Notes under the pieces: generated by a model
What the model was told of the DNA's origin: nothing
The model's database searches: none
Seen by the model: the letters and a program-made list of their open reading frames with translations, nothing else
Translations under genes and position numbers: made by a program
Source: Tribonema minus
Taxonomy: Eukaryota > Sar > Xanthophyceae > Tribonematales > Tribonemataceae
Reading direction: 5' to 3'
Length of the DNA stretch: 64,000 bases
Assembly: GCA_017506865.1 (NCBI GenBank)
Contig: JAFCMP010000153.1
Span: forward strand, 62,001-126,000
Shown here: positions 13,221 to 24,765 of the stretch, piece after piece
Numbering within the stretch: the first letter of the stretch is position 1
How the letters are laid out: each line of letters starts with the position of its first letter

Positions 13221-13603
13221 AACACAATGGTTGATGGTGAGCCGACGGCTGACTTACGCAGCGACGCAGAGCACATGGGCCAGGTTGGCAAAGGATGGCA
13301 AGTTTAGATGGCTGGTTGTGAAATGGATCACTTGCGTCGTGCTGAGCGACGATGCAGCCAACATGGATCGTTAGATAGAGGCGATTGAATCAGGTGAACT
13401 TCAATAGGCCTGTGGTAGAAGTACATGCACACAAGGATTATGTGAATGGTGTGGTGGGGGCAGCACACGCTGAGGCTGAACTTACAAGCACAATGTCAAC
13501 TGCGCATTTGACCATGCGCACTGCCGTCGACACACGCGCTGTCACCACCACGGGGCATTATTGCATAAAATTGATATCAAGTGATGTAGAGAGACAAGGT
13601 CTG
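13221..13603. other. Spacer without recognisable feature
   Basis: No supported gene. It ends in the 4-bp target duplication TCTG (13600-13603) next to the LTR. Confidence 0.6.
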
Positions 13604-13960
13604 TGAAAAGGAGTTGGGGTTATATTTGTTATATGTTAAGCCTGTCTTACTTGTGGATGGGGCAGCGTTGGCTTGGGCTGGTGTAGAAGGGTCCATGATG
13701 GTTGATGGTTGTTGGCTTCAGTTGTCTCTATCCTGAAGCCGTGGTATCCTAGCTGACTGACAAGAACTGAGGCCTTGCAAGCACAACCCTTCATCTGGGG
13801 AGACTCAAGAGTCTCACCGGTTAAGGGGTTTTCCTGCAATGTCCCCCTAGTTCAAACCAATTGCCCTGGGCCCTAATAACGGCCGAATATAATAGAGTTG
13901 AAACATCATAAGCCTGAAGGCTACATAAATAGTTTACTTTACATACAGCTGCCCGTGTCA
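13604..13960 (-). repeat. 3' LTR of the Ty3/gypsy-type element
   Basis: 357 bp, starts TG and ends CA on the plus strand, matched by 24183-24535. A small duplication or deletion distinguishes the two. Confidence 0.95.
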
Positions 13961-13974
13961 ACTCCCCCTTCTCA
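13961..13974 (-). other. Polypurine tract next to the 3' LTR
   Basis: On the minus strand gagaagggggagt immediately precedes the 3' LTR, the expected place for plus-strand priming. Confidence 0.75.
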
Positions 13975-14229
13975 TGATTTTTCTGTCCCCAGAGAAACGC
14001 ATAGCACCACAGGGATCAACGTTGCTACAGTTCTACGATAGCGCATGTGTAATTCAATTTACTTCACCTCCACACCCAACCTTTACAGACCCTCGTATAG
14101 AGTATCCACATAGGTACTGTGCAGCGCAATATTCGTTCAAGGCGCCGCTGCACAGCTCCAGGATTGTTTCATGTCACAGCGCCGGCCAGCCACTGAGCAC
14201 ATGCGTGGTGCAGCTACCTCACATCACCA

Positions 14230-17200
14230 TCGCTCAGATCCATGTCATCGCCTCCACTGGATAAATCATAACCTCCCTGACCAGACTCCTGGCCCAAGGG
14301 AACCTCTTCTGCGACCGTGGTCAGCAGTAGGTTCCAACTGGACATAGGGTCTGCCTCAGCCTGCTCGCTAGTAACTGCGGTGCTGTAGTAGTCAGGCCTC
14401 AGCCGCACGGTGGTTAAACGCGTGACTGGGTGCCCGTTGTAATGCACGCGAAATGTGTACTTGCTGGACCGGGGCAAGTATTCCTTGAGCACTGCGCGGC
14501 TCCAACCAGTTGCACTCTTGACTCTCACGGTCTGACCATGGTAAGTCGCACCAAAGTCTGGTGGGATCGCAGCGCACATTTCCTGCACCACCTTGGGGCT
14601 AGAAACCGTGACGCCCAGATCCTTTGCGCGCTGCTGAGTAGCTTCAGCCAACGCAATTGCGCATTGCAACTGCCGCTTTGTGAAGTCCTCCCAGTCACCA
14701 TCCTCATAGCGCACGCGCCAGTACGGTGCGAGGTAACCAGTGATGGTTCCCCATAGGTACTTGACTTGTTGCTTAAGCGCGCCTCGCTCCTCACGCACCA
14801 CCTTGGTACCTCTCGGGAATAGGGCCAGCGCAGCCTCTTTCGTGGCTATGCGCCGGTCCTCCCGTGGTATCCTCATGGCGTAGTCAGGCATGCCATTCAC
14901 ATGCTTCAACTCGTAGAGCGCGTGAAAAGTATCGAGCGTCCAAGGCATGGCAACCTCGAGTGCATCGTCCTCTGTCTTCCATGTGCTCAACGTACCATCT
15001 CTGAGCAGCCAACGGTAGTCCCGCGAACCATTGGGGTTGTACCGGCGGTCTACCAGCCTCTCTAGCCAGCCATCCTTGGGCAGTTGCTTAATGTCTTCCT
15101 CATTAAGCACCGTGTAGGGCTTGTCAAGTTCCATGACACTTGGCCTTGAATGAAAAGGCTTCATGTTGGTCACATGTGCCCGCGTGCGTCGCGCACGGCG
15201 CCCCATCATGCGGCATGAAAATGACAGCCCAGATCCGCCAGTTTCCTCTGCTACCACCCATGGTCCAATGAACTTGGGGTCCAGCTTCCTGGATCGTCCC
15301 TTAGCAGGCTTCTGCTTGATCATTACCAGGTCCCCTACCTTGACCTTCATTGCGCGCTTGACCGCCTCATTCGCCTTGTCAACTCTGCGCGCCTTGATGC
15401 CATATGCCTCATCAATAACCTTTTGTGCCATCTTGAGGTTGACGCGCTTGCGCTCAATCTCAAAATGCAAGTCACCACCATGCACTTCGTCAGGGAAGGT
15501 ATCAAATGGCAGGGACGGCTCGCGGCCATACACACAGTAGAAAGGGCTAAGGCCTGTTTCTTCTCTGGGGGTGGACCGGAGAGCGAACTGCACAGCCTCA
15601 ACGCCCTCATGCCAATTCTGTTGGGTCTTGTCAACCCAGACAGTCAGAATGGCCATGATGCGTTCATTCTGCCGTTCAGCGACCCCATTTGCCTGTGGGT
15701 GGTATGCATTTGTGACAATTGTCATGATTCTGAAAATTGAGCACAAATCGCGCACCACAATGTTCAGAAACTCCTTGCCTTGGTCTGACACTAGCTCTTC
15801 TCACATGGATCCCATCTCCAGGATTACCTTGTACATGAGCCTTGCAACCGTATGCATGTCCTTGTTTTTAATTGGCATGAGCCAGCAAAATCCAGAGCAC
15901 GCCTCAATTACTGTCAGCAGCCCTATGTGCCCCTCTAAAGACACCACCGAGGTCATGGTGATGTCAGTGTGCGCTCGCTAAAACATGCGAGTTGGCAGTG
16001 TTAACATCATCTTGGCCTTGCCAGTCGTAGCCTTCTTGCGCTGTAGGCAAGACATGCAACTAGTGACATCCGTGTGTACATCACTGCTGATGCGAGGCCA
16101 GTAGAAGCGCTCAAACAGGCGGACATACGTGGCGCTTGCGCCTGCGTGACCGGCCGTGGCATCGTCATGCCCCAGCCTCAAAACCAGAGGGCGCAGCGCG
16201 GCGGGTACAAACCATTGGCGCAGCACCATCCCGCGTTTGGGGTGGCTGGTGGCCAGATGTACCAGCAGGCCGTCCTCCTCGTGACAGTACCAGTCACGGT
16301 TCACCATTAAGTGTGCAGCCAGCTCACTATCCTGCGGGTATATATTGTCCCTCAGAGTGCGTGACACTGCCTGACAAAAGGGGTCCCGCTGCTGGAGCTC
16401 AATAAACACTTCCCGGCTTAGCATTGCCGTGGTCCCCTCAACTGGTTCAGGGACCAAGCCATGGCTGGGCTTGCTGAGTGTGCGCTTACGGCGTGGCTCT
16501 GACACCCCCTCTGTTCGCTGCGGGGGGATGGCGCCCCCTGGTAGCGGTACAGCGGTGTTGGCAGCGACCCGGCGGCGCTTGGCAGATATGCTCGCAGTTT
16601 TGCTAGATGCCGGGGAGTCCCAGTCAGACTCTGCCGCCTCATCCATGCATGCATTAGCATACACATGCAAAGTAGCTGGACTGAAAGACATCGACGCAGT
16701 CTCTCCATCCGTCCACGAAGAGTCTTCCTCGTCCAGCTTACATAGCAAAACATCGACCTGTTGGACCGTAAGCGTAGCCAGCCTGGCTGCTATGCTTGAG
16801 TCCTCACTTGCATTCTTCATGGCTAGCTCATTGAGCGAGAAGGGGGTGCCCCACTCATTGCTCACCAGTTTACCCCTGAAGTTGGCAATTTTAATTGCCG
16901 CTGCAGAAACATGTGTCCCATGGTTGGTCGCCTTTTCTTGGTCAGCAAACTCCCCTAAGGGCGCCGCAAACTCTTCCTTAAAATTTGCAAAGTTCACCCC
17001 TGAAGGTGGTGCTGCAAAGCATGGGATAGAGTCTGACCATTGCTCGTCTGCTTGCTCATACTCTCTAGGAGCATCCAACTCTTTTTGCATAGGGAGCCCG
17101 GACAGGCCGTCTGCATTTGAGTTCACCAGGCCTGGTCGGCGTTGTACGGTAATGTCGTACTCCAGCAACCTCATAGCCCACCGCATAAGCTTGACATTGT
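14230..17200 (-). mobile_element. Integrase region with chromo-like and Tudor-like C-terminal segments
   Basis: Contains an HHCC zinc-binding segment near 16.0-16.2 kb and a retroviral-type integrase core at about 15.3-16.0 kb. A chromodomain-like stretch follows near 14.9-15.1 kb, then a Tudor-like stretch (WRVRYEDGDWEDF) near 14.7 kb. Chromodomains at this position are known from chromoviruses, where they steer insertion to marked chromatin; the Tudor resemblance is my inference. Fossil part. Confidence 0.8.
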
Positions 17201-19650
17201 GGTCCTGCAAAGTCAGCAGCCATCGTTAGGCCGCCGCATCTGTAACCACTGTGACTGGGTTGCCCCACACGTAAGGTCGGTAATGGTTGAGTGACAGCAC
17301 GACGGCCAGGCACTCCAACGCGGTAGCGCCAAGTTTGGCGTCTTGTGTGGAATTAATTTAAGAAAAAAAAAAACACTACCACTTCCAATTCCTCCATTTC
17401 CTCCTTCCCATTTACTGTGCGCCTGCGGCCTGCCGCGGGGGCAGCTTCTTTGCCACTAAGTGCCTGCACTGGTTTAAATTGCGTCAAAATGCCACTAGTG
17501 GCAGTTTGAGATGCATCAGTGTACAGCACAAATGGTAGTGAGAAGTCTGGGTGTGAAACCAGTTTTGCCTCACACATTGCCTTTTCAAATGCCTCAAAGG
17601 CATCGCGCCTACGCCAATCCCATACCATTTCTGCATCACTTTTGGTCAGCTCCACAAGTGGGGCTGCCAATGTTGCAAAATCTTGAACATACCGCCGGTA
17701 ATAGTTGAAGCAGCCCAGTACTGTACGTACTAGCCCCTTGTCAGCTCTCCTTTTGGCATTCAATGGTGCGCTCATGTCAGACATTGCCTGAACCTTTTCT
17801 GGGTCTGGATGGTCTGGATGAATGCCCCCCGATCCCACAATGTGACCAAGGAACTTGATCTCAGTTTGGAACCATTGGCATTTGTGCCGCGCCACACTTA
17901 GACTAGCGTCTTTGATGCGTGATAGGACGTCACGGATATGCGCAAGGTGCGTTTCCATGGAGTCATCATATATCAAGACGTTGTCGACGTAAACCATGGC
18001 ATATGCACCTAGGGCAGCGCCCAAAGTGTTGTGCATCAAGCGTGTGAATTGCGCAGGCAAATTCACAAGCCCAAAAGGTGCCACTGTGTACTGCCATAGC
18101 CCTCCATCAGGTGTGCGGAATGCCATTTTAGGCTTGTCACTTTCGCGCAATGGTATCTGATGGTAGCCTGCGGCCATGTCGACTGAGGACACGTACCGTG
18201 CGCCCTTCATTTGATGCACCATATCATCGATGTTGCCTAGACCTCTGCTGTCGCGCTTCGTAACAGCTTTGAGACGGCGGAAGTCCACGCAAAATCGTAT
18301 CTTATCACCTTGCCTTGCTAGTACTGGGTTGCATGCCCATGGACCATTGCTAGGCTCCACTTGCTTGCGCACATGCATGGCCTTGACATGTTCCATGATG
18401 TACTCTGCCTCCTTTTGCGCCCACCTCCTAGCCTTTTCAGCGATGGGCATTGCATCACCAGTGTCAATCTCAAACTCCATGAGGTTTGTCACTGTGGGGT
18501 TTTTGGGGTCCTTTGCAAACACGCTCGCGAATTCGTTGAACACATCCATCAGATGCTCAGCATATGGCCTACCATCGGGGGCTTTCATATCATGAAGGTC
18601 ACCTTTGGTGGGTAGCATCTCGCGTAGCTCTGCCTCAGTGCAGGGTTCCTGTGTGGTACGAGTGCGTTCTGTGCCTGGTGTAGCAGCAGACACATTAGCA
18701 GCACCATAGGTACCAGCAGCCTTCTCCATTGCAATTGCTCGCAGTGCCGCGGTTGCAGCGTAGCTGAACTCGCTGTTCGGGTGGTGAGCTGCAGCCACCT
18801 GCAAGAGCTGTTGCTCAAGCTTGGTCGCAGATGCGTCCTCCAACTCAATGATATCCTCAGGCGAAGCCGGCCGTGCCTCACCAATGAAGGTGTTTCTGGC
18901 CATAAGCACCGGCTGGTCTGAGAAGTTTACCATGCGTGCGCGCACAGGGTTGTGCGCGCCAACAATATCCACCGACATGGCGGCCTTTACGCCCCTTTCT
19001 TGCAACTTCAACATCGTCTGAGACATTGCGGGTTGTATTACTGCCGAGTAGGGGCTCAGCCCTTTCACTGGTGGGTGTAATGCAACTTCAACGTTCACCT
19101 CGGTGTGCGCTGGAATGAGTATGTCATTCACCACGCACACGGCACGATGCGCAGGGGGGGCTGGTACCTTGTGGCTAATTTTCACAGCCCCTGCGGTCTT
19201 AGCGCCTTGCCACACAGTCCCATGCGCTGCCTCGCCGCCCAGCATCTTCAACTTTGGGCCGTCCGATCCTAACGGCTGGTATGTCAAATCCTCATAGTCA
19301 AAGAGGGTTTTGTACATGCCAAAGAAGTCGCTGCCTAGAATGGTGGTGATGGCCAAGTCCACAATGTAGAACTTGTGCCGCACCAGCTTGTTGCCAAACC
19401 GTAAGGTGAGGTGCAAAGCGCCTACAATCTTGACCTGTGTGCGACTCTCTGCCAGTTCTATGACCGAATGGCCCCCCTTCTCAAGAGGGCCTGTCGTCCC
19501 TGGAGATAGCTCATCCGCCGTTGCTTTTGCCATGGTGCCTGCCTCAGCGCCGGGGTCCAGCAATAAGACAAAGTCTCGTTCTTTGAACCCACGTTGGTGC
19601 TGCACGCGTGCCTTCAGCCTGGCAAACCGCTGCTTGCTGGGCTGGCCACT
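17200..19650 (-). mobile_element. Protease, reverse transcriptase and RNase H region
   Basis: An aspartic-protease-like segment lies near 19.4-19.6 kb. The reverse transcriptase core lies at about 17.9-18.4 kb (DMAAGYHQIPL, APFGLVNLPAQF). RNase H follows near 17.2-17.6 kb (LPFVLYTDAS). Typical Ty3/gypsy pol order. Fossil part. Confidence 0.9.
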
Positions 19651-20249
19651 TGGCAACACAACTGTCTCTCCCGGCCTAACCGAGGCGGGATCAACTTCAG
19701 CCGCTTGTTAGCGGATCGCTTCATCGTGTAGCTTGGCAGCCACAGCGCTCACGCGAGGGTTGCCTAGCCCACACCTGCGAGTTGCCTCTTGCACCGTGTC
19801 GTCGAATTGTTGCTCGTCTTCACTGGCGTATGAACCTTGTGAGGAGCCGCTAGGGCGTATGCACCTTGTGAGGAGCCGCTAGAGTGTGACTGCACAAGTT
19901 CATCTTCCTCAACTTCATTAACATCAGAGTCTGAGTCACTGCACGAGTCGTTGAGCGCTGTGCACGACCAAGGACCTGTGTTCAAATCTTCTGCACATAT
20001 CATATCAGGGGTGATTGCATACTGCCAGGCACTGTATCGTGCGGTGACAGCCGCAACCCTAGCCTGCACCTTGCCTTGCTCAGTAGGGGTCTCTGCCACA
20101 TGCATGTAATCTTGAGACCCTGGCAGCATCCATTCAATGGGGGGTGCACTAGGGTCATGGTCCAGGCGGACACCCCGGGGACAAGGGGCGCCTACTTGAA
20201 GATCAAGCATGCCAGATCCCACAAGCCCAACAGCAATGTGAAAAGCCAT

Positions 20250-21150
20250 GCGTGGCATGACTAAGTTTACAAGCCATAACTTCATGTCCTCAATGGTGGC
20301 CTTGCATGGCAAGTCACGTGTAAAGGTGAGCAGGACAGCCGTTTCACGCAATGACAGTACTCTTGCATTTTGCACAGGGCCAGCATCATGTTCATCATTA
20401 GCCACATAGTCAGCCAGATCCACTGGTGGTTTTCCAGGGTTCCGCCTGACCGGGCTGGGCATGCAGTCATCGGCATCATACACACTCTTGGTACCCTTCA
20501 CGCGAGATTTCCAAAAGGAAACAGCGCTCAGGGCAGCGAAGAACACGCCGTACGGACATGGGTAATGATGAACGCTGGATTGCATTAATTAACGCCCCGC
20601 ACCGTGCCATAGCGGTCGTGACACCAACCCCTGCCCGCGCAATCACCACATACACCCGCCGCCGGTGGCACGCTATGCTAAAATCTGACCCCTTCAGCTT
20701 GCTGACATAGAGACAGTAGCCGTGGGCCAGCAGCAAAGCCTGCGCGCGTGCCCACGCCTTGGAGCTGAGCATGGAGACCACATTCTCGATGACACAGCAG
20801 CGCAGCTTCGCCCTCACAATCAGCCGCGCCGCCATGACCGTCACCTCCGCCGCTGCCCCCTCAACGCCACTCCCGTTTGCATAATCTGTGCACGGGGGGG
20901 ACATTGTGGTGAGGTCAGGATCCAGTTCAGCCAGTGCTATGGCTACTGCATCATCGCTCAGGCACGCGTTCAAAACCTTGTGGGTGCCAGGGTGCAGTTC
21001 GTGGTACGCCTCACACACGCGGGGGCACTTGTCAACAGCAAGTTGAGTGTCCACCACAAGGCCTGCCACACTTGCCTGCTTTAACCCCTCGTCCCAGCCA
21101 CCAATGCCGCAGCCTATGGAGGCGTGTGTCACATGCCGCGCTGCACCCGC
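20250..21150 (-). mobile_element. Cytosine-5 DNA methyltransferase domain inside the retrotransposon
   Basis: C5-methyltransferase motifs in order: motif I ASIGCGIGGWDEGLKQA, motif IV TTMSPPCTDYANGSG with the Pro-Cys pair, motif VI CCVIENV, motif VIII HRRRVYVVI, and a motif X-like segment farther on. It lies between gag-like and pol regions in the same orientation and inside the LTRs, so it belongs to the element rather than being a host gene. Capture of cytosine methyltransferases by Ty3/gypsy-type elements has been reported in dinoflagellates and a charophyte alga. Fossil part. Confidence 0.9.
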
Positions 21151-21559
21151 CACTGGCATGCCAGCATCAGGGTCCTGTGTCACAGCGGTAGCACAGACAG
21201 GCGATTCGCTTGCATTAGGTATGGTAACCGTATGCGGCGAACCAGTGTTTGATGGGGGAGTATCGTTTGCACCATCACCTTCAAGTTGCATGTTAGCATC
21301 AGCCGTAGACTGCGACACTTCCGCGAGGGAAGGTACGCTGGGTAACGAAGGATGCAACATAGCCAGCAATACGGCGTCATTGCGCCCCGGCGCGCGCTCA
21401 CGTGGTGAGGTTGCGATGGACGCAGAGACGTACATATCATGTTGACCAAAAACATGTTCAAGTTCAAATGCGGCGCGCGCACCGCTGGTGCCACCCCCTG
21501 AGAGGGGCGCGCGCGCGCGAGCGAGCAAAGTAGACTCACCCTGAGCCCTCTGCCAGGCC

Positions 21560-22870
21560 ACAAAGGCCATCATCTTGTGATACTCGTCCGCCTCCGCCGG
21601 CGTTGGCGCAGCGGCAGCAGCCGCCACTGCCACGACCGGCGCCTGCGGCATAGCAACCGGGGGCGGAAAAGGGGGGCGAGGACCGTACCGCGTGTACTGA
21701 TTCGCCTGATGCGCCGGCGGCACGCCGCGCGGCTCACCGCGCGGCCCGCCGTACGGTGCGGCGCGGGGGCGGCGGGCAGGATCAAACGCCGGGCAGTTGG
21801 GCGTGTTGCGATGCATGTCAACGGAGGTGCCGCGCGGCAGCGTTGTCTGGCAGTCAAAGCATACCCAGTGAGAACGCGTGTTGAACTGCACCATGCCTGA
21901 ATTGCCATGCTCAAGCGCGGGGGGCCCACGCCTGGCGCCGGAGCCGACTTGGCGGCTACAGCAGCAGCTCGCACCTCCAAGGCTTTCTCCTTTTTGGCAA
22001 GGCGCCTCTCCTTGTCCGCCAGCGCCTTCTCCTTGCGCGCAATCTGCGGGGCAGAGGGCGGCTGGCGCGGCGCGTCACTCGCTTGCGACGCGTCGTCGCG
22101 CAAACTCTCAAGGTCAGAACCATCCTGCGACGTGGGTCCGCCCTTGCTCGCGGCATGGGCTTTCCCGTTCCAGGTGCGCTCAATGTGCTCCTGAATGCTC
22201 GCAAGACCAGCGTCCTGCCAGCCCCTCCCCAGTGCAACCCTAGCGGCCGTCCGCTCCTTGGATGAGATGAGGCGTAAGTAGTGAAGCTTTTCAGAAAACT
22301 CACGAGAACTTTCGCTACCACCTGCCTGTACGACCATGTTCCGCACGCGGAGAGCCAACTCCCCAGGGCTCTCGCTCGGGAGACGCCTGGCTTGAAGTAG
22401 AGAGTTGTACACCTTCTCTTGGGCAGCTTCAGAGTTGAAGTGCTCAATTATGGCTGCACAACGTTCTCCATAAGTTAGTTTCTCCCACGCCTCCCGCTTG
22501 CCGCCGACCTCTAGGGACAGTAGGCGCACAGTTGACATCAACGGTTTGTCCCTCGAAGCCTTTATGGCCACACTTAGAGCGTGGACCTTGACGTCCTCTG
22601 CCATGGAGCGCAGCGCAGCGGTGAGTGAGTCAAGCCTGGTGACACAGACACCTACGCGAGAAGAGAGGTCGGCTACGCCGGCAATCCTACCAGCCTTCGC
22701 ATAGACGTCTCCCTTGCCCCTGTTAGCAGCGTCAGCGCCGTCCGCTCGGGACGGTTCACTGCCATCGTCGCTGGGGGTCGTGGTGACCCCAGTGCTCGAC
22801 GACGCAGTATGAGACATCTGAATCGAGGCCGCCACGCCAACGCGGGGCGGGGCAACCTGGACCAAACGCA
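21560..22870 (-). mobile_element. Gag-like region with zinc-binding segment
   Basis: A helical capsid-like stretch at about 22.1-22.6 kb (YGERCAAIIEHFNSEAAQEK) is followed by a charged coiled-coil and a Pro-rich stretch. A Cys/His segment lies near 21.8 kb (CFDCQ...MHRNTPNC). Assignment is by position and composition. Fossil part. Confidence 0.65.
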
Positions 22871-24182
22871 TATCTCGTCGTCGAGCTCCGTCTCTCGCTC
22901 GCTACCGCCAATGGCCGGCGCAGGAGGGGTGGCAGGCTCCTTTGACGACTTGGACTTCTTCACGGGCTTCTCCGGCTTGTCAGCCGGTGCCGCATCAGCC
23001 TTGCCCTTACACCCCCTTTTTCTCGAGGAGGAGTCCGAGTCTGCACGTGGAACAGGATCATGTGTTGAGTCTCTCAAACGTACACCTCACCATCAAACAC
23101 TAAGATATTAATCAGCCTGAGAGAGCAACAATAGTACTCATCAAAAGAGCCTTCTCTTGGAACATGGGATGTCCCTGTGCGTTCGCCCGTGCAATTAGCC
23201 AGCCCGGGACGTGCACAGAACACACCGGCACTCCCATGAGATGCAGGTGGTTGCCAATCATAGCCACGCAAGTCAGTAGAACCACGGGCTCCCGCAACCG
23301 TGTCAACTGCGGCATGCTATGTTTCATGCATTTGGTTCTAGTGCGGCAGCGGCAGAGCAGATTTACTGTTGTTGCTGCGCAAGCACCATATGCACAACTG
23401 TTTATCGTCGTCGTTAACGCTGTTGCCTAGCTGATTGTGGCCTGCACCAATTCAAAACCTCCGGTATGCAACCGTTACCTAGTAAGTTGCTCTGGGTAGC
23501 AACTTCAAGCGAGCGTCGACGCATTCGCAAGACGAACTGTGATCATCAGCTCGATTACACCATCATCAGATGGTGCCGAGAAACAAAGGGTGGGGGGTGA
23601 TGAGTAACCTCGCAAGCCCACTAATGCCCGTGCAAGTCAGTACGGGAGAACCCGTACCGCAGCTTTCGACAGTCAGCCTCATCATCTCAATTACACAGCG
23701 TTAACAGCCGACGTCATGCGAAGCAAATACGGGTGTGTGAGCCGCTGCTAAGCATGATTCCTCCGACACAGGCACTGGAGCTAGGGCGGCTCACGCAGCA
23801 TAAAAGCACTGCTGCTCAGTGTTCACTTGGTAGCGACAGCTGGCACAACCAAGCAAAGGATGCGGCATGCAGGCGCATAATTACAATGTGCATGCACACC
23901 GACCCCTGCGCTAAATTCCTCCTCTTAGCCGCCTCCGGTTAGTACGAGCGGTAACCAACACTCAGCGCGTCCGCCTCGCGAAGGGCCGATACTGAATGAT
24001 TGGACGATTTCCTATTCAGTCAATTGGCCTACGTTAAGGAGCGGAAAAACAACGTTGGCGCTCCAGAGCACGTATTGATGAGGGCAAGCGAGGCTAACGA
24101 TACGATATTTAGTGAGCACGCGTAGCTTGGTTCGTCAGGGCCCGCCAAGCAAGGGGTGGGTAAGGACTGTCTGTAGGTGCCA
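22871..24182 (-). mobile_element. 5' leader of the retrotransposon
   Basis: About 1.3 kb between the 5' LTR and the gag-like region. A Lys/Ser/Pro-rich frame covers about 22.7-23.1 kb; the rest is without clear coding. Directly inside the LTR the minus strand reads TGGCACCTACAGA, beginning with TGG as a tRNA primer site would. Confidence 0.6.
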
Positions 24183-24535
24183 TGAAAAGGAGTTGGGGTT
24201 ATATTTGTTATACTATGCTAAGCCTGTCTTACTTGTGGATGGGGCAGCGTTGGCTTGGGCTGATGTAGAAGGGTCCATGATGGTTGATGGTTGTTGGCTT
24301 CAGTTGTCTCTATACTGAAGCCGTGGTATCCTAGCTGACTGACAAGAACTGAGGCCTTGCAAGCACAACCCTTCATCTGGGGAGAGTCTCACCGGTTAAG
24401 GGGTTTTCCTGCAATGTCCCCCTAGTTCAAACCAATTGCCCTAGGCCCTAATAACGGCCGAATATAATAGAGTTGAAACATCATAAGCCTGAAGGCTACA
24501 TAAATAGTTTACTTTACATACAGCTGCCCGTGTCA
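24183..24535 (-). repeat. 5' LTR of the Ty3/gypsy-type element
   Basis: 353 bp, TG...CA, about 98% identical by eye to 13604-13960. Confidence 0.95.
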
Positions 24536-24547
24536 TCTGTCAACAAT

Positions 24548-24765
24548 TAACGTGTGCGCCCAGGTGGTCAATGCAACGCATTTCGACCTGTACGATTGTC
24601 GTACAGGTCGAAACATTTCGACCTGTACGACAATCGTACAGGTCGAAATGCGTTGCATTGACCACCTGGGATTGTCGTACAGGTCGAAATGCGTTGCATT
24701 GACCACCTGGGCGCACAAACAGGTCGAAATGCGTTGCATTGACCACCTGGGCGCACAAACGCAAT
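24548..24765. repeat. Nested inverted/tandem repeat cluster (fold-back unit)
   Basis: One forward arm (gcgcccaggtggtcaatgca, then acgcatttcgacctgtacg) is followed by a palindromic centre and three reverse-complement arms in tandem. The arm is related to the 51-52-bp terminal motif at 48033-48084 and 49576-49627 (shared gcgttgcat and acctgggcgcacaa). It looks like nested ends of a small element. It begins 12 bp after the LTR retrotransposon. Confidence 0.85.

Follow-up and report, generated by a model that had tools for sequence, protein, structure and literature searches.

A Ty3/Gypsy-type retrotransposon of the xanthophyte Tribonema minus with a cytosine-5 DNA methyltransferase domain in its polyprotein, and its relatives in the same genome

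The window element and its methyltransferase domain

The window analysed here is a stretch of 64,000 nucleotides from the xanthophyte alga Tribonema minus (assembly GCA_017506865.1, contig JAFCMP010000153.1, positions 62,001 to 126,000 of the forward strand), in which a Ty3/Gypsy-type long terminal repeat (LTR) retrotransposon carries a C5-cytosine DNA methyltransferase (DNMT) domain in element orientation, between its gag-like part and its protease (Table 1; positions are those of the window). The open reading frame (ORF) at 20476-21894 on the minus strand matches the DNA_methylase family PF00145 with 43.4 bits over residues 259-422 (cut-off 22; E 3.8e-11), and a frame change near 20.5 kb (20500-20560) moves the last third of the domain into a different frame (ORF 19764-20585). 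The domain carries the C5-methyltransferase motifs SPPC, ENV and HRRRVY, and the predicted fold of the enzyme includes the target-recognition half. A preliminary description of the locus, made from the sequence alone, had placed such motifs between the gag-like and pol regions and proposed a profile search of the 20.2-21.2 kb region; the match above cut-off agrees with that placement.

The domain is not confined to this copy. In an intact relative (L029), it matches PF00145 with 45.3 bits and occupies residues 817-981 of a polyprotein that continues with reverse transcriptase (RT; 1746-1902), RNase H and integrase and then with a Tudor match below threshold; a second locus (L030) holds the same polyprotein, uninterrupted over 3078 amino acids of the stretch examined. 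With the 307-residue DNMT of L029 as query, at least 36 places in the genome were found at 94% identity or more, the window copy included; 31 of these extend over the full 307 residues with no stop, and eight stand in open frames of 3104 amino acids, these counts being lower bounds as 129 of 438 candidates were scored. A one-off insertion of a host gene, which the preliminary description had named as refuting, alongside a failure to match the family, is not what the copies show, and a chance match is excluded because the domain recurs at these 36 places and shares one uninterrupted frame with the RT in intact copies. The proposal of an ochrophyte LTR retrotransposon with a DNMT between gag and protease is thus borne out by both anatomy and copies.

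The boundaries of the window element are equally clear. Its LTRs are identical at 346 of 350 aligned positions (98.9%; about 98% had been claimed), a separate repeat search agrees, and the TCTG target-site duplication already noticed is present at both ends. The purine-rich tract AGAAGGGGGAG immediately precedes the 3' LTR, and a TGG, which may belong to a primer-binding site, follows the 5' LTR. The Pfam domains follow the Ty3/Gypsy order of RVT_1, RT_RNaseH, Integrase_H2C2 and rve, the last being matched in L029 and giving no match in the broken frames of the window. The gag-like region ends in a CX2C...H...C zinc-finger-like segment (approximately 21790-21867) and has no Pfam gag match, neither in the window copy nor in the frames of intact relatives. 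Similarly, no Pfam protease match was obtained in the window, and a relative (L027) gives one below cut-off. The Tudor-like matches of the relatives are weaker than that of the window (18.3 bits in L029 and 16.0 bits in L034, against a cut-off of 27.2).

The window copy shares 95-97% DNA identity with its intact relatives. Relative to intact copies, aligned in pieces, it has five frame changes, of which one coincides with an approximately 470-nt gag deletion near 22868 and another falls within the RNase H region at approximately 17370-17404, together with four in-frame stops, all in the RNase H-integrase part (two in RNase H and two in integrase). Its RT has YVDN where intact copies have YVDD. 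Judged by its reading frames, the window copy is a dead relic of a recently active family.

Table 1. Parts of the retrotransposon in the window, with the basis on which each was placed.
Feature	Position	Strand	Basis and remarks
LTR retrotransposon, Ty3/Gypsy-type	13604-24535	-	10.9 kb; ends exact, structurally complete; LTR alignment and repeat search
Target-site duplication, 4 bp	24536-24539		TCTG on the plus strand (CAGA on the element strand); adjoins 5' LTR
5' LTR	24183-24535	-	353 nt; TG...CA ends
Gag-like region	21790-23086	-	Position and alignment to L029
C5-cytosine DNMT domain, motifs I to X	20200-21147	-	Pfam and sequence reading
Aspartic protease region (LLDPGAE...ILGSDFF)	19300-19590	-	Read from sequence, placed by alignment
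Reverse transcriptase (RVT_1)	17836-18303	-	Pfam
RNase H region	17226-17622	-	Pfam and alignment
Integrase: H2C2 zinc-binding domain (16032-16208) and core	15708-16208	-	Pfam and intact relatives
Possible Tudor-like reader near C-terminus (PTM_DIR17_Tudor)	14664-14762	-	21.4 bits, below cut-off 27.2
3' LTR	13604-13960	-	357 nt; TG...CA ends
Target-site duplication, second copy	13600-13603		TCTG; adjoins 3' LTR

Adjoining the 5' LTR, the segment 24553-24758 contains a perfect inverted repeat with 55-nt arms (24559-24613 and 24616-24670), as well as a related 40-nt unit present in three direct copies. An Rfam scan of the window at gathering thresholds gave no match.

Lineages, copy number and selection in the T. 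minus genome

The DNMT-bearing elements fall into three groups, A, B and C, whose RTs share at least 55% identity with the query of their own lineage and 26-38% between lineages, in a comparison of the RTs of A, B and C with each other. On these RT and DNMT sequences, the domain is carried by at least three Gypsy lineages of T. minus, which constitute a radiation.

Lineage A, to which the window copy belongs, has the polyprotein order gag, DNMT, protease, RT, RNase H and integrase. Seven subfamilies were sampled (L029, L034, L027, L031, L010, L024 and L032), with 34-64% identity to L029 in the DNMT and 55-78% in the RT. The catalytic cysteine, ENV and both arginines are kept in all seven, though whole-domain identity falls to 34%. 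One subfamily, A1 (L027-like, at least 86% identity), is present at no fewer than 52 places. An A4-like DNMT was also seen in an open frame of 6208 amino acids, twice the usual length (G000:C311:3904), reflecting either tandem elements or an assembly effect.

In lineage B (L014, L033 and L011/L009), the DNMT follows the protease, and full-length frames carry a chromodomain at the C-terminus, beyond the integrase. The chromodomain scores 28.9 and 29.2 bits (cut-off 25.1), and six of six listed frames of 2936 amino acids lie above the cut-off; that of L033 reaches 24.0 bits by hmmscan, just under the cut-off, and 31.3 bits in the genome search. PPC, ENV and RxR are kept in three of three members. 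Two features of this lineage are of separate note: a very long alanine-rich repetitive linker between DNMT and RT (L014:922-9729, residues 1200-1560), and a locus at which two B elements stand head to head, with near-identical DNMTs about 2.4 kb apart (L013, G000:C101:632500-642450).

Lineage C (L016, L018, L019, L175 and L176) carries the DNMT upstream of the RT and after the protease, the latter on the evidence of a protease motif that the sequences of L018 and L019 show upstream of it. C1 (L016 and L019) keeps PPC and ENV, with the cysteine, EN and RxR set complete, in listed frames of at most 1204 amino acids. C2 (L175) has STRC instead of PPC and still matches PF00145 with 33.6 bits. C4 (L176) has a deletion of 25 residues against L175 that takes out the catalytic cysteine, and scores 16.5 bits, below the Pfam cut-off. 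C4 sequences matching at 96% or more over at least 185 residues were found at 29 or more places, and a short piece at one other; of the 29 long matches, 27 span the deletion at 98-100% identity, four of them in frames of 3452-3455 amino acids. Within lineage C, as these residues indicate, the DNMT decays.

Genome-wide, a PF00145 search in which 123 of 378 candidates were scored placed all of those scored above cut-off. Seven pooled searches gave 366 or more separate DNMT-domain places when fragments are counted, irrespective of retroelement context, which four of them (L001-L004) do not show. The association with RT is close: among the 150 best RVT_1 rows, two of them belonging to a single RT, 137 are preceded on their own strand by a DNMT place no more than 7 kb away, against a chance expectation of about 0.8% per RT. 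The 150 rows were drawn from 1416 candidates and favour lineages A and C, lineage B RTs scoring lower, and do not represent the whole RT content. No upstream DNMT was detected for the remaining 13 rows, some of which lie near contig ends. Two high-scoring RT groups (C15 and C214), taken as DNMT-free controls for want of a PF00145 hit, were discarded, as both proved to carry a DNMT, one weak and one with its catalytic loop deleted. DNMT-free Gypsy lineages may exist elsewhere in the genome, since the best 150 of the 1416 RT candidates were listed.

The ratio of nonsynonymous to synonymous substitution rates (dN/dS) of the DNMT is 0.16-0.31 across subfamilies, where dS is large, and 0.17 in a close A1 pair; between two degraded A6 copies, it is approximately 0.93. 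These ratios indicate that the DNMT is kept under purifying selection.

Origin of the enzyme and elements known elsewhere

A protein search with the window DNMT returned seven matches among 2669 candidates, 72-81% identical, three from T. minus and four without a name. The T. minus NCBI proteins found (P0004, P0006, P0007 and P0021) are annotated as hypothetical or uncharacterized only, and P0001 shares 65% identity at best with the T. minus loci compared. Profiles reach single-domain enzymes at 25-29% identity (P0010 and P0011 with the lineage A profile; P0019 and P0020 with that of lineage B).

In a tree of 50 rows and 306 columns, in which pieces of 163-184 amino acids represent DNMT1, DNMT2 and M.HhaI, a branch with 99/99 support holds 16 element DNMTs with nine others, namely, five bacterial sequences, one from a viral contig, P0010, P0011 and P0020. 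The five are single-domain C5-methyltransferases of Paenochrobactrum, Aureimonas, Roseibium, Nitrospirota and Latescibacterota (L095, L097, L113, L121 and L099), free-standing and 26-29% identical to the B query, whereas the element DNMT of T. minus is fused into gag-pol. On the opposite side lie DNMT1, DNMT2, M.HhaI, further bacterial (L104 and L108 among them) and archaeal rows, and the T. minus ORFs L001 and L002; the element DNMTs group with neither DNMT1, DNMT2 nor these ORFs, and a quick tree of 43 rows agrees (main branch 100). Among the DNMT1, DNMT2, bacterial, archaeal, viral-contig and T. minus sequences compared, the enzyme accordingly groups with bacterial-type DNMTs. The PDB sequence matches up to E 10, of which 53 are listed for A and 50 for B, include no DNMT3 chain, with neither a DNMT3 positive control for this search nor a Dnmt3 row in the tree; none stands either among the listed profile matches to DNMT2 and DNMT1 or among 50 listed entries of 1000 chains in a further search. 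For lineage B, 60 viral-contig loci match at 22-36%, similar to the bacterial ones; the scan covered this lineage, the A profile having no stretch conserved enough for it.

Each lineage is recovered in the tree (A 99/96, B 100/99 and C 98/89), and A and C are sisters (97/94; 97 in the quick tree). A, B and C are joined weakly as one group (84/38), and the placement of B is a fork in the quick tree, so there may have been one capture or several, with the DNMT coming to stand on either side of the protease.

The genome's best PF00145 matches belong to three solitary intronless DNMT ORFs (L001, G000:C223:936374-939871, L002 and L003; 128.8, 115.3 and 113.2 bits). A motif X-like GNSVVP precedes the last third of these ORFs, as if rearranged, and the opposite strand of L001 has an ORF that, read from its sequence, resembles a nucleotide kinase. 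These ORFs are possibly of viral origin.

Retrotransposon DNMTs are described for Symbiodinium, in long interspersed nuclear element (LINE) and DIRS types, and for Klebsormidium, in a Gypsy element with Dnmt3 (PMC5890265). Of the Ty3/gypsy precedents named in the preliminary description, the charophyte one stands, as the Gypsy element of Klebsormidium, but the dinoflagellate elements in print are LINE and DIRS. KnitGypsy-Dnmt3 of Klebsormidium nitens shares with the T. minus elements its Gypsy type, the placement of a C5-methyltransferase within the polyprotein, the catalytic residues and the action of purifying selection; it differs, as described there, by a Dnmt3-class enzyme and a DIRS-like repeat arrangement (PMC5890265), whereas T. 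minus, a xanthophyte host, has an enzyme of bacterial grouping that matched no DNMT3 structure by sequence, ordinary LTRs with a 4-bp duplication, three RT lineages and two DNMT positions. SymbioDIRS-Dnmt3 and SymbioLINE-Dnmt resemble the present case in that hundreds of retroelement DNMTs occur in one genome, those of SymbioLINE being also of an orphan class; the element types, with a tyrosine recombinase in SymbioDIRS, differ from the Gypsy type with an rve-type integrase (PMC5890265). The features of the type described by de Mendoza in 2018, a DNMT inside the element's own coding frame in many copies and purifying selection, are present in T. minus.

Among brown algae, Gypsy-10_Ec32 (Tudor) of Ectocarpus has a C-terminal Tudor domain and a homolog in T. 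minus, which may recall the sub-threshold Tudor matches of lineage A; the part of that account consulted mentions no DNMT in it (PMC12477816). Ectocarpus has negligible 5-methylcytosine (5mC). A 2025 survey names, in the part consulted, the Symbiodinium and Klebsormidium lineages only (PMC12344493), and the accessible text of a study on DNMT diversity in SAR contains no such elements and no match for Tribonema (PMC9998398). One sentence elsewhere reports adenine- and cytosine-methylase retrotransposons in groups including stramenopiles, kinds not being assigned to groups (PMC6338049), and may be a prior notice of such elements. No report of DNMT retrotransposons in T. minus or any xanthophyte was found in the open-licence literature, with subscription journals and Repbase outside its scope. 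The host group, the bacterial-type enzyme, the union of writer and reader, and the several lineages set the T. minus elements apart from those of Symbiodinium and Klebsormidium.

What the methyltransferase may do

That T. minus has a Gypsy family with a bacterial-type DNMT in its gag-pol is, as to anatomy and origin, close to certain. That the enzyme serves to methylate the element's own DNA would be, on the sequence evidence, an evenly balanced proposition, and the reading as a whole is favoured as fairly probable. Under it, the DNMT would be made as part of a single gag-pol polyprotein and packaged with the RT in the virus-like particle, which it should enter because both lie in one frame. 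Its target would then be the freshly made double-stranded cDNA or the inserted copy, methylated either ahead of integration or during it. Copies would arrive already marked, and the host machinery of DNMT5, HELLS and CDCA7 would maintain the mark; among SAR species, T. minus alone has been reported with a putative CDCA7 together with HELLS and DNMT5, and it is also credited with a protein in the DNMT4-like clade that could itself be a writer (PMC10538959). The element may in this way mark or mask its own copies, as the preliminary description suggested. Marked copies might pass as host DNA or insert harmlessly, with protection of the cDNA as another possible gain, and in lineage B the chromodomain might steer insertion to matching chromatin. 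Symbiodinium DIRS-borne DNMTs methylate CG de novo (PMC5890265), and the gain to the element may be any of these there as well.

A trace of methylation may be present in the window copy. With two intact copies taken as ancestral, C-to-T and G-to-A changes number 38 at the 1216 CpG positions and 49 at the 4119 remaining C or G positions (odds ratio 2.7, p 1.4e-5), and the copy may have been methylated at CpG at some time, by whichever enzyme. Several observations weigh on the other side. The comparison treats the window copy as derived; A-to-G and T-to-C changes (75 of 4093) also exceed the non-CpG rate (p 0.02), and measured against them the CpG excess shrinks to an odds ratio of 1.7 (p 0.009). 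CpG observed/expected is 0.68-0.99 in the elements (0.77 in the window element), values that do not fall distinctly under the 0.81 found for the rest of the window; the composition thus gives no sign of heavy self-methylation, and CpG depletion was set aside as a footprint. The DNMT is also less constrained than the RT in divergent pairs. Lastly, methylation is not needed for C4 to amplify, since C4 copies without the catalytic loop are 98-100% alike and four retain their long frames.

Two other functions are each considered unlikely. In the first, the domain acts on RNA, placing 5-methylcytosine on the packaged element RNA in a DNMT2-like manner and so protecting or labelling the genome RNA. 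For lineage A, DNMT2 chains are the best profile matches (48.8 bits, against 38.3 for M.HhaI), and for lineage B, DNMT2 and DNMT1 score about equally (47.0 and 46.7 bits). A zinc-finger-like segment read from the sequence lies directly upstream of the DNMT in A, and a SymbioLINE DNMT gave no DNA methylation in yeast, RNA being proposed as its substrate (PMC5890265). In the second, equally doubtful, the domain is mainly a structural, nucleic-acid-binding or S-adenosylmethionine-binding accessory of gag or pol for which catalysis is dispensable. C4 propagates without the motif IV loop and its cysteine, in the 27 of 29 long matches described above, C2 has replaced PPC, and DNMT dN/dS between C2 and C4 is 0.16; these suggest a non-catalytic role in at least one lineage, C4. 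As a general account, it is opposed by the retention of the cysteine, ENV and both arginines throughout lineage A and of PPC, ENV and RxR throughout lineage B.

A benefit to the host, by which the DNMT would dampen the element or defend against DNA viruses and the families be tolerated, has been proposed for accessory retrotransposon methylases in two reports (PMC6338049; PMC5890265); here, it is very improbable, as many copies are young and near-identical and the elements are therefore not strongly restrained. That a single element took in a host gene, or that the annotation is an accident, has a negligible chance and is rejected by the many copies, the three RT lineages and the frame shared by DNMT and RT.

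Returning to self-methylation by the element, a wider form of that reading is conceivable but improbable, in which retroelements would be the major de novo writers of the alga's cytosine methylome. Bacterial-type DNMTs would have been taken up by Gypsy elements and, in the B polyprotein, combined with a chromatin reader; the host DNMT5, HELLS and CDCA7 would maintain 5mC, the parasite would supply the silencing mark, and the catalytically dead C4 would ride free or interfere.

T. minus would represent a third eukaryote group, and the first ochrophyte known to us, with C5-methyltransferase retrotransposons. Lineage B unites DNMT and chromodomain in one open frame, a putative writer and reader of chromatin marks in a mobile polyprotein, and C4, with intact frames and a deleted catalytic loop, provides a natural experiment. 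The question of what retroelement DNMTs are for thereby becomes directly testable in this algal genome. If the proposed function is true, a genomic parasite would write the very mark that hosts normally use to silence it.

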